Below, piece by piece: positions 11,338 to 15,201 of a DNA stretch of 64,000 bases (position 1 is its first letter; every line of letters begins with the position of its first letter). Under the pieces are notes generated by a model. That model made no database searches. It was not told the DNA's origin and was given only the letters and a program-made list of their open reading frames with translations. The stretch comes from an uncultured Cocleimonas sp. (GTDB lineage: Bacteria; Pseudomonadota; Gammaproteobacteria; Thiotrichales; Thiotrichaceae). The DNA is taken from NCBI RefSeq assembly GCF_947495625.1, contig NZ_CANLZW010000026.1, positions 1 to 64,000 on the forward strand, read 5' to 3'. Position numbers and translations under genes: made by a program.

Positions 11338-12273
11338 ATGATACCTAGCCAAAGTTATTACCGAATAATGTCAGGCGCTAAGAGTGCTTACTTTAATGAC
11401 TGTTATGAACATGGCTTTATTGGTGGAGACTGGGGTATTCATCAAGATCTTTCTAATGATCTGACTGAAGCTTGGCAGGACTTCAATAAGAAATTTATAC
11501 CTGTTTTTTTAGAAGCTCATCCTGAAAAATCAAAAATTGCTGCAGGGCTGGCTTGTGGAATGCTTCATACGATATGTAAAGGTATGAATGTGGGCGATAT
11601 TATTTTAACTCCAAATGGTAGCGGCCAATATTTTGTTGGTGAATTAATTTCGGAATATTATTATGAAGAAGGACAAATATTACCTCATCGTCGCAGAGTA
11701 AAATGGTACAAAAATAGTATCAGTAGAGAAGAAATGAGCGAGCAACTCAAAAATTCTGCAGGTTCTATTGGTACAGTAAGTAACTTATCAAAATATGTAG
11801 AAGAAATAGAAAGTCTGTTATCTGGGAAGAGACCTCCATCTCTAACTCATAGTGATGAAAACGTTGAAGACCCTACGGTTTTTGCCTTAGAGAAGCATCT
11901 CGAAGACTTTTTAATAGCCAACTGGCAATCAACAGAGCTTGGTTCGGAATATAATATCTTTAGTGATGAAGGTGTTTTAGTTGGTCAGCAATACCCTAGT
12001 GATACTGGTCCTATAGACATTTTAGCAATTAGTAAAGATGAAGCGACCTTACTAGTCGTTGAGTTAAAACGCGGTCGTGCGAGTGATGTGGTTGTTGGTC
12101 AAATTCAAAGATATATGGGGTATGTGAAGGATGTCTTAGCTGAGCCTCATCAACAAGTCAAAGGTGTGATTATTGCTCTAGAGGATGATTTAAAGCTTAA
12201 GCGTGCTTTAAGCATTGCTGTAGGAATTGAGTTTTACCGTTATCAGGTATCTTTTAAACTCTTAAAAACTTAA
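11338..12273 (+). CDS. Endonuclease NucS-like / PD-(D/E)XK protein, possible defence nuclease
   Basis: A 311-aa protein in two parts. The N-terminal half (about 1-160) includes VGDIILTPNGSGQYFVGEL and RRVKWYKNSISREEMS, resembling the DNA-reading part of restriction-type proteins. The C-terminal half carries a PD-(D/E)XK core: D227 (GPIDILA), E242-x-K244 (VVELKRG) and Q255, as in NucS/DUF91 nucleases. It is probably a cytoplasmic DNA-cleaving enzyme acting on modified or foreign DNA (inference). No methyltransferase is adjacent. It sits next to the RAYT/REP unit and the toxin-antitoxin pair, and is AT-rich, fitting an accessory island. Confidence 0.7.
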   Translation: MIPSQSYYRIMSGAKSAYFNDCYEHGFIGGDWGIHQDLSNDLTEAWQDFNKKFIPVFLEAHPEKSKIAAGLACGMLHTICKGMNVGDIILTPNGSGQYFVGELISEYYYEEGQILPHRRRVKWYKNSISREEMSEQLKNSAGSIGTVSNLSKYVEEIESLLSGKRPPSLTHSDENVEDPTVFALEKHLEDFLIANWQSTELGSEYNIFSDEGVLVGQQYPSDTGPIDILAISKDEATLLVVELKRGRASDVVVGQIQRYMGYVKDVLAEPHQQVKGVIIALEDDLKLKRALSIAVGIEFYRYQVSFKLLKT

Positions 12274-12292: not shown

Positions 12293-12463
12293 TAAAAACA
12301 GCCTAAAAACACGGTAACCCGCATATTAAACACGTAGGTCGGATAAACGCGGTAACTCGCATATCAAATATTAAACTCGTAGGTCGGATAAGGTTCGCCA
12401 TCCGACATCTGTTTCTGATCACACATGGTCATGTCGGATGGCACTGCGTTTATCCGACCTACG
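12293..12463. repeat. REP cluster downstream of the RAYT gene
   Basis: Contains several copies of the REP core GTAGGTCGGATAA: about 12333-12346, 12379-12391, and an inverted copy TTATCCGACCTAC at about 12449-12461. The last two, with CATCCGACAT (12399-12408) and ATGTCGGATG (12431-12440), form a large imperfect palindrome (12379-12463). At 12293-12315 an A-rich GCCTAAAAA segment may be a decayed G6 repeat. The REP palindrome supplies the stop codon of the RAYT gene. Confidence 0.85.
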
Positions 12464-12995
12464 ATTCTGATCTCTCTCCGGCATTTAAATCTTGTACCGT
12501 TTCACCCCAATCTTCTAGGTAATAATCCTGTCTGACTAAATGATGGAATGTTGAATGGGGCCATTCTTTTACAGATTCCACTAAACCATGTTTGACTGGA
12601 TTGTAATGTATGTAATCCATATGTCGCTGGAAGTCATTTTCATCGCGAATGGTGTGTTCCCAAAATCTATGTTGCCAGATTCCACGTTCGTTTCTTTTTA
12701 TTCTTGTGGGTGATAAATATTCGTCTTTTTCTATTGATTTTGAGAAGGCTTTTTTGATTTCACGCCAACGTCCTGAATAATCGTTATCATTTTCTGGTAG
12801 CGTCCAAATAGTATGCATATGATCTGGAAGAATAACCCATGATTCAATCTTAAAAGGTTTGTTCTTTCGAGTGTTCTTTACGGCTGTTCGTAATTCATTG
12901 ATGTGATCTACGAGTAAGCTCTTTTTGCGTTCTAAAAGGTTGACCGTAAAAAAATAGCTTCCACCAGATACGTAATTGCGACGATAGTTTGGCAT
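12459..12995 (-). CDS. REP-associated tyrosine transposase (RAYT)
   Basis: A 178-aa Y1/HUH-family protein with the N-terminal signature YVSGGSYFFTVN, the metal-binding HUH motif in LPDHMHTIW, and the catalytic Tyr helix DYIHYNPVKHGLV. RAYTs bind and cut REP hairpins as single strands. REP elements flank this gene on both sides (12293-12463 and 13016-13047), the diagnostic arrangement. The last codons AGERSES and the stop codon TAG lie partly in the downstream REP, so the C-terminal end is encoded by REP-adjacent DNA. It appears intact. Confidence 0.93.
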   Translation of the reverse strand: MPNYRRNYVSGGSYFFTVNLLERKKSLLVDHINELRTAVKNTRKNKPFKIESWVILPDHMHTIWTLPENDNDYSGRWREIKKAFSKSIEKDEYLSPTRIKRNERGIWQHRFWEHTIRDENDFQRHMDYIHYNPVKHGLVESVKEWPHSTFHHLVRQDYYLEDWGETVQDLNAGERSES

Positions 12996-13096: not shown

Positions 13097-13200
13097 AGAA
13101 TAATTCCCTTGTTACAACCAACACTGCGCCATGCTTACGCATGACCCTGCGTACCCTTCTGGCTCCTGGTGAGCCTGGAAGGGCAAGTAGGGAGGTGTAT
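13083..13200. repeat. Long direct repeat A flanking higBA
   Basis: About 115 bp, starting GGGGGGTGACATTTTAGAAT and ending AAGTAGGGAGGTGTAT. It matches 14028-14149 over nearly its whole length (shared blocks include AACACTGCGCCATGCTT, GCGCATGACCCTG in the other copy, and GGTGAGCCTGGAA). It contains two hairpins: CATGC-TTAC-GCATG, and a longer one with CCCTTCTGGCTC against GAGCCTGGAAGGG. Both ends carry the G-rich motif of the dispersed repeat. Confidence 0.85.
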
Positions 13201-13616
13201 TAAACATCAAAAAACAATGCCGGACTAAGCCCAAAGCGTTTACTCAATGCTTCAATGTGATTTCGCGTTAAATTACGTTTGTGATTCAATATTTTGGAAA
13301 TGAGTGTTTTAGAGCCCACTTCGGGAAGATCGGCAATACCAAGTCCATGTTGCTCCATAATGAGTTTTAGTGTTGCAACATCATCCAGCTTGGAGATTCG
13401 CTGATTGAACTCGTTAAATTCTTCGGCGGTATTTTCCCAGCGTTCTATTGATGCTGATAGAAGCTCGATCAAAGGGCGTTGATTGTCATAATCTTCTATG
13501 AGTTCATCCATTAATGCCAAGGCTTGTTGGTATTCCTTATCGTTTTTAATTTCAATGATATAAGTCGCTTCTGAAAATAATTCATTAGCTTTTAGTTTGA
13601 TTTGTTCGAATCCCAT
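13200..13616 (-). CDS. higA: Antitoxin HigA-like, XRE-type HTH
   Basis: A 138-aa protein. The N-terminal 80 residues are helical; the C-terminal half is a HigA-type helix-turn-helix (LKLIMEQHGLGIADLPEV...SKILNHKRNLTRNHIEALSKRFGLSPALFF). It should neutralise the HigB toxin and repress its own operon through the two palindromes upstream. It is second in the operon, 3 bp after higB, the order typical of hig modules. The stop codon touches direct repeat A. Confidence 0.9.
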   Translation of the reverse strand: MGFEQIKLKANELFSEATYIIEIKNDKEYQQALALMDELIEDYDNQRPLIELLSASIERWENTAEEFNEFNQRISKLDDVATLKLIMEQHGLGIADLPEVGSKTLISKILNHKRNLTRNHIEALSKRFGLSPALFFDV

Positions 13617-13619
13617 AAA

Positions 13620-13934
13620 TCACCTCTTTGAATTTTTTGTATGCTGCTTGCATAACTTATCGTACTCGGCGTGAGATACGATATGTTTGATAAATAAACG
13701 TTGATCCCGGAATTCTATAAACGCAATCAAGCGTAGGTTATTACCGCCAATATCAATCACCCACCATTTATCTTTGTATTTAAAGTTATCAAGAGAAGGG
13801 AATACTTTGCGTAGATCGTCTGGTTGTTTGAATTCGCCTGACTTTAGTACTTTATAAATTCTATCCAATGTATCTGCCTGATTTGGATATTGTAACGCGG
13901 CATCCTTAAAAGGTTTTCTGGATATAACGTGCAA
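13620..13934 (-). CDS. higB: Toxin HigB-like mRNA interferase
   Basis: A 104-aa RelE/HigB-fold protein (MHVISRKPFKDAALQYPN...WWVIDIGGNNLRLIAFIEF...IKHIVSHAEYDKLC), matching the HigB toxin family in length and pattern. It would cleave ribosome-bound mRNA. It is the first gene of the higBA operon, directly behind a strong autoregulated promoter. The cassette lies between two long direct repeats, suggesting it was acquired or can be lost as a unit. Confidence 0.9.
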   Translation of the reverse strand: MHVISRKPFKDAALQYPNQADTLDRIYKVLKSGEFKQPDDLRKVFPSLDNFKYKDKWWVIDIGGNNLRLIAFIEFRDQRLFIKHIVSHAEYDKLCKQHTKNSKR

Positions 13935-14149: not shown

Positions 14150-14268
14150 AACCTTTAGAATCAGAATACAAATCCGTTTATGCCTTTTGTGGTATAGGTT
14201 TCGTTTAACAGATCTACTAAAATGCTTGCTGTTACAGTCAATCCTCACTCCAAATCACAGGAAGTTGT

Positions 14269-15201
14269 ATGTCAGCAGAACACCCGATAATTGCGTTCGT
14301 TAGTTCAGCCGGAGCTGGTAGTGCTGCGGTCACTCAGGCTTTTGAGAATATCTTTTTTCGGGAGCGCGTCAAGGCTGTATATATTCAGGGCAATGCTTTT
14401 CATCGTTATGATCGTAAACAAATGCGTGAGGAAATTAAGAAAGCCAAGGAAGAGGGCAAAGTCTTAAGCCACTATAGTCCTGAAGGTAATCATCTGGATA
14501 AGCTGGAATCTTTGTTCTTTCAATACGCTGCTGTTGGCACGGGTATGTCTCGTTACTACTTGCATACGCAGAAGCTCGCAGATCGTTTCGAGCAGCAATC
14601 AGGTACGTTTACACCCTGGAAAGAATTGCCGAGAAAGAGTGATCTATTGTTATATCGTGGCCATCATGGGGCAGCTGTGTGGGGTGATATCAATCTCTCA
14701 CAATATCCTGATCTGTTGGTTGGTGTGGCACCAAATGTTAATCTGGAATGGATTCGCAAATTAAAGCGCGACAATACTTTGCGCGATTACACCCGTGAAG
14801 AAATTGAGGAAACCATCATTGCGCGGATGAAAGATTACGCCGAGCACATCACTCCCCAGTTTTCACGCACCCATATCAATCTGCAAATGATTCCGCTGGT
14901 GGATACATCAGATCCATTCTCTGCAAGAGATGAACCTACACTCGAAGAATGTTATCTAGTCATTAACTTTCAGAACGTTGAATATCCGGATTTTCCACGC
15001 TATTTAAAGCATATCCAGAATTCTTTTATGTCTGGCAGAAACACGATGGTTGTGCCGGGAAGCCAAATGCTTCATGCACTGGAAATTATCTTGATGCCTA
15101 TCATTCATGAATTGGTAAAGAAGAGTCGCAAGTTACGAAATATCAAAAAACCACCGAAGCAAAAGAAAAGTGGTTTGCTGGGTTTATTGTACGAATTGTA
15201 A
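14269..15201 (+). CDS. Phosphoribulokinase homologue lacking catalytic residues (pseudo-PRK)
   Basis: A 310-aa protein, colinear with proteobacterial class I phosphoribulokinase (about 290 aa) plus a basic C-terminal tail (KKPPKQKKSGLL). The N-terminal 49 residues align without gaps to Rhodobacter sphaeroides PRK (as I recall it): Walker A is changed (S12, A14, A19, A20 for G12, S14, S19, T20), the catalytic base D42 is N42 (GNAFHRY for GDAFHRF), and the Walker-B-region Glu of YEGLHG is Arg (YRGHHG). Retained are H45, R49 and the NLEWIRKL/KRD region with the second Asp. It therefore has the fold but probably not the kinase activity; a binding or regulatory role is inferred. The start has a good site (AGGAAG). 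No RuBisCO or other Calvin gene is nearby. Confidence 0.85.
   Translation: MSAEHPIIAFVSSAGAGSAAVTQAFENIFFRERVKAVYIQGNAFHRYDRKQMREEIKKAKEEGKVLSHYSPEGNHLDKLESLFFQYAAVGTGMSRYYLHTQKLADRFEQQSGTFTPWKELPRKSDLLLYRGHHGAAVWGDINLSQYPDLLVGVAPNVNLEWIRKLKRDNTLRDYTREEIEETIIARMKDYAEHITPQFSRTHINLQMIPLVDTSDPFSARDEPTLEECYLVINFQNVEYPDFPRYLKHIQNSFMSGRNTMVVPGSQMLHALEIILMPIIHELVKKSRKLRNIKKPPKQKKSGLLGLLYEL

Follow-up and report, generated by a model that had tools for sequence, protein, structure and literature searches.

The window, by which we mean the whole 64 000 nucleotide stretch of Cocleimonas DNA that was analysed, includes a gene for a 310 amino acid paralogue of phosphoribulokinase (PRK; 14269..15201, + strand) that, judging from its residues, very probably lacks PRK kinase activity. 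Its classification as a pseudoenzyme is well supported, because Asp42 and Glu131 have been lost throughout its clade, selection on the gene is purifying and all 24 genomes that carry it also have a canonical PRK. The first-pass annotation had proposed a pseudoenzyme that might sense ribulose 5-phosphate, AMP or NADH. The pseudoenzyme part of that proposal stood on the grounds just listed, but sensing of AMP or NADH was weakened, as the window protein has lost three of the five allosteric arginines. The retained sugar-phosphate site fits the sensing of ribulose 5-phosphate, with which it would be compatible.

The PRK paralogue in the window

The open reading frame starts with ATG and is preceded by a ribosome-binding site, AGGAAG (14259..14264, +), that has the same letters in Cocleimonas flava. 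The protein matches PF00485 in Pfam (154 bits) and NF011997 in NCBIfam (386 bits, where the cut-off is 362). The only close solved structure by sequence, 1A7J, is the class I PRK of R. sphaeroides, which matches residues 1–287 with 254 bits and 42% identity. Earlier descriptions of the frame as intact with a good start, and of the protein as colinear with class I PRK, were thus borne out over the whole length. An AlphaFold2 model (mean pLDDT 83.8, pTM 0.83) matches 1A7J with an rmsd of 2.0 and a TM-score of 0.94 (normalised by target), and the PRK fold is therefore predicted to be intact. The PRK/uridine kinase domain spans the whole chain, placing the protein in this family by sequence and by predicted fold. 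A C-terminal tail past the PRK fold (15133..15198, +), similar in length in most of the clade, was modelled with low confidence (pLDDT <50 from residue 295). No Rfam match was found in the region of the paralogue.

Residues are numbered here as in R. sphaeroides PRK, with window residue 130 equivalent to position 131. All four substitutions claimed previously, G12S, S19A, D42N and E131R (window residues 12, 19, 42 and 130), proved to be real. The P-loop at residues 12–19 (14302..14325, +) is SSAGAGSA in place of GSSGAGT[ST], the catalytic base Asp42 is replaced by Asn (14392..14394, +), and YEGLHG is replaced by YRGHHG (14653..14670, +), which puts Arg130 in the position of Glu131, presumably a metal ligand of PRK according to the work of Miziorko and colleagues. 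The same group is said to have found that replacing D42 in the R. sphaeroides enzyme removes almost all of its activity. Further changes visible in the alignment include E40Q, T18S and Q164R.

Residues retained in the window protein are H45, R49, R96, Y98, H100, K165, R168, D169, R173 and R187. They include the His45–Arg49 part of the sugar-phosphate site (14401..14415, +) and Arg95, Tyr97 and His99 (14551..14565, +), the equivalents of the sugar-phosphate or dyad residues R96, Y98 and H100. The lid segment, NLEWIRKLKRDNTLR (14740..14784, +), has K165, R168, D169 and R173 along with the Q164R change. The allosteric arginines of PRK are reportedly R30, R31, R221, R234 and R257 (work attributed to Kung et al., 1999); R31 and R221 are retained here, but R30F, R234N and R257G are changed, and position 30 is variable among canonical PRKs also. 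The claim that allosteric and substrate Arg and His residues are kept therefore holds for H45 and R49 but only in part for the allosteric arginines. In the PRK of M. hungatei, Arg59, Tyr98 and His100 bind a sulphate that stands in for the sugar phosphate (PMC5241800), and we take them to correspond to residues of the set R49, R96, Y98 and H100. Plant PRK has an Asp–His dyad whose Asp serves as the base (PMC9978339).

Distribution, conserved residues and selection

Of 63 Thiotrichaceae genomes, 24 have the paralogue, with its frame intact in every case; an order-level search gave the same 63 genomes as the family-level one. Searches of 369 class-level and 398 phylum-level genomes (partly overlapping draws) detected no paralogue outside the Thiotrichaceae; nothing outside the family scored above 417 bits, and the 18 best outside matches examined were all canonical. 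By comparison, a profile built from 20 paralogues scored its own kind at 519–582 bits and the canonical PRKs of the family at no more than 358 bits. Carriage on plasmids was considered and rejected, as plasmid matches reached only the canonical level. Within the family, the paralogue is patchy in Cocleimonas itself (2 of 12 genomes) and present in all 16 genomes of a Thiothrix-like genus, a name that, like that of the Thiolinea-like genus below, is inferred.

The phylogeny called for in the first-pass annotation placed the homologues with these substitutions in one supported clade. In a maximum likelihood tree of 77 sequences, all 24 paralogues lie on one side of a branch with 100/100 support, and Cocleimonas, a Thiolinea-like genus and the Thiothrix-like genus form separate branches among them. 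The paralogues are not nested in the canonical clade of the Thiotrichaceae, and an origin as a recent copy of the resident PRK was discarded.

Comparison of the 24 paralogues with 54 canonical PRKs (78 aligned sequences) revealed that position 131 is Arg in every paralogue and Glu in every canonical sequence. This Arg is encoded by three codons, CGT, CGG and CGC, and what is conserved is therefore the amino acid itself. Position 42, Asp in 54/54 canonical sequences, is Ser in 21 paralogues, Asn in two and Gly in one. GSSGAGT[ST] is almost unchanged in the canonical set, and the paralogue P-loop varies by lineage (GAMESGSVS, GASDHSSTS, SSAGAGSA), with GSSGAGSS still present in some members. Gly15 of the P-loop is Glu in 11 paralogues and Asp in five, either of which is expected to oppose ATP binding. 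R49, R96, Y98 and H100 do not vary in either group, R49 thus being common to all 78 sequences, while His45 is kept in half of the paralogues and is otherwise Arg (11) or Leu (one). At 48 of the 79 positions that never vary in canonical PRKs, at least 90% of paralogues have the same residue; positions kept in fewer than 20% include T18, E40, D42, E131, Q164 and R208. What an active enzyme needs at the P-loop, Asp42 and Glu131 is missing, and what it needs at R49, R96, Y98 and H100 is there. No colinear replacement for the base was seen in the alignment, which counts against its being supplied by another residue. Apart from Arg131, the 24 paralogues showed no polar residue that is both new and invariant at the known active site. 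At position 229 (window residue 228), 22 of the 24 paralogues have Cys where every canonical PRK has Ser, and a redox role for this Cys is conceivable.

The suggestion in the first-pass annotation that the gene is maintained was confirmed by 24 intact frames and by dN/dS values of 0.015–0.12, compared with 0.024–0.086 for the canonical PRKs of those genomes. These ratios rule out a pseudogene. The two Cocleimonas paralogues gave a dN/dS of about 0.016, a rough figure as dS is near 2 and close to saturation, and nine other pairs gave 0.035–0.12, roughly level with the canonical copies or somewhat higher. Despite the nearly saturated synonymous sites in the coding sequence, approximately 90 bp before the start codon, a 5′ leader or promoter region (14177..14268, +), is conserved between the window and C. 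flava; sequence farther upstream is much less so.

Canonical PRK, RuBisCO and gene context

The genome that contains the window (4.6 Mb) belongs to the genus Cocleimonas, and its closest relative, C. flava DSM 24830, is 93% identical. A search of this 4.6 Mb genome for a true prk and for RuBisCO, another check proposed at the outset, found both: a second PRK (G000:C3:41232-42173) in which GSSGAGTT, EGD and YEGLHG are intact, and two RuBisCO large subunits. The canonical partner copies in all 24 paralogue-bearing genomes likewise have all canonical residues. Tandem PRK genes were seen in a different gammaproteobacterial family (L113 and L114), and as both copies are canonical in each genome, duplication alone does not bring decay.

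Among genomes that carry the paralogue, 22 of 24 have RuBisCO above the family cut-off; among those that do not, 23 of 39 have it, and these counts are not corrected for kinship. Several relatives thus have RuBisCO but no paralogue, so the paralogue is not needed for the Calvin cycle. RuBisCO was not detected in two paralogue-bearing genomes (G045 and G046), one of which is 96% complete. The paralogues in these two (L030, L023) have changes, R31Q and H134N, at otherwise conserved positions, a weak hint of erosion where RuBisCO is missing.

When neighbourhoods were compared, no conserved operon, no link to cbb genes and no neighbour common to the clade was found. The paralogue lies 7–23 bp before an acyltransferase gene in some Thiothrix-like genomes, precedes an iron alcohol dehydrogenase gene in two genomes, and adjoins isocitrate lyase and mqo in two Thiolinea-like genomes. 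As neighbourhoods differ between genera, operon context was dropped as a clue to function. Just upstream of the paralogue, the window contains a gene for a HigB-like toxin (PF09907) and, after it, a short gene for a probable antitoxin (13200-13934, –). Other genes on that side are a lone transposase gene of IS200-like (Y1) type, probably REP-associated (12459-12995, –), and, after an aminopeptidase N gene, a gene for an orphan protein that has a PDDEXK nuclease domain resembling NucS_C (11338-12273, +).

Possible roles of the paralogue

The combination found here, of catalytic residues lost under purifying selection and an active paralogue in the same genome, is what would be expected of a regulatory pseudoenzyme. 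The distribution of the changes suggests that the earliest losses, those of the base and the metal ligand, fell on the stem of the clade, with Glu replaced by an Arg that would have been held since, and that ATP-binding features went later; the P-loop would then have decayed separately in Cocleimonas, the Thiolinea-like genus and one Thiothrix-like subclade. The pocket for the phosphate of ribulose 5-phosphate would have been retained and transfer of phosphate from ATP lost. The ligand may be a pentose phosphate, for which we put the chances at about even, and could be ribulose 5-phosphate, or ribulose 1,5-bisphosphate (RuBP) with Arg130 replacing the metal.

The best explanation, which we hold tentatively and at slightly under even odds, is a PRK-folded pseudoenzyme with a pentose-phosphate pocket that regulates carbon fixation through the true PRK. 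It could do so by joining the PRK octamer or by competing for a common ligand; that it acts on the true PRK at all is possible but rather less than an even bet. The PRK of R. sphaeroides is an octamer (PMC9978339). The fuller version, in which a regulatory pseudo-PRK would read ribulose 5-phosphate or RuBP in a metal-free pocket in sulfur-oxidising autotrophs across the family and set Calvin flux via co-assembly with PRK, is doubtful. Against regulation through PRK we count the missing operon or cbb link, the two genomes of 24 without RuBisCO, the relatives that have RuBisCO but no paralogue and the inconstancy of His45. A precedent is the trypanosome AdoMetDC prozyme, also a dead copy kept beside an active enzyme, which activates its partner (PMC5201418). 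However, the prozyme belongs to an unrelated enzyme family, and its binding to a partner is proven, whereas for the PRK paralogue such binding is a proposal.

The protein could instead be a free-standing sensor that binds ribulose 5-phosphate or RuBP and acts on some other partner, such as a transcription regulator or another Calvin cycle enzyme, without joining PRK. We consider this unlikely, as gene context points to no partner, but the invariant sugar-phosphate residues, the lone gene with its own conserved leader in Cocleimonas and the differing neighbourhoods between genera all suit it, and repression of cbb genes in R. sphaeroides involves a signal to which NADH-activated PRK belongs as an intermediate (PMC4806589). 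Arg131, invariant while most other catalytic positions drift, and the near-invariant Cys229 could alternatively belong with the altered base to a new enzyme for another reaction on a phosphorylated sugar. This is improbable: Arg131 is the only new invariant polar residue seen at the known active site, and the P-loop and position 42 differ from lineage to lineage, which would not be expected if a new active site had been conserved. A weakly active PRK with its base supplied by another residue would be in keeping with GSSGAGSS in some members and with most lid residues being kept, but is very unlikely when base and metal ligand are gone from 24/24 members, no colinear replacement is seen and a canonical PRK always accompanies the gene. 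Finally, a decaying gene that has merely not been lost yet is scarcely credible. The faster change relative to the canonical copy in most genome pairs and the patchiness in the window's genus speak for it, but it is already contradicted by the dN/dS values, the intact frames, the conserved leader and an Arg131 that is invariant across large synonymous distances.

The pseudoenzyme reading, which we prefer, also bears on a gene already in the literature. Two prk copies, the second divergent, are reported for every Thiothrix, and the second is absent from Thiofilum flexile, which lacks RuBisCO, in PMC9455678 and PMC10532065. The presence of the paralogue in all 16 Thiothrix-like genomes, given their inferred genus assignment, fits this report. 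Very probably the paralogue is the same gene as this 'prk2' of Thiothrix, 'Ca. Thiocaldithrix' and Thiolinea, and it is thus known as the second prk of these genera, where it was taken for a PRK; as far as the available parts of the two papers go, it is named phosphoribulokinase, the lost residues are unmentioned and Cocleimonas is not among the rows of the prk table. No report of a dead PRK paralogue or PRK pseudoenzyme was found in the open-access literature, most subscription papers being outside the search. In comparison with class I PRK (1A7J, NF011997), the paralogue is alike in its colinearity, fold and sugar-phosphate residues, and differs in its base, metal-ligand Glu, P-loop, some allosteric arginines and extra C-terminal tail. 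NF011997, an equivalog model named phosphoribulokinase, matches all 20 members scanned, and because the window protein scores above its cut-off, automatic annotation names the paralogue an active PRK, probably wrongly. In both the genome papers and this model it is taken for a second working PRK, and metabolic reconstructions are misled as a result. The Calvin cycle is defined by two enzymes, of which PRK is one. If the paralogue does regulate, it would be a control point of CO2 fixation in sulfur-oxidising bacteria.
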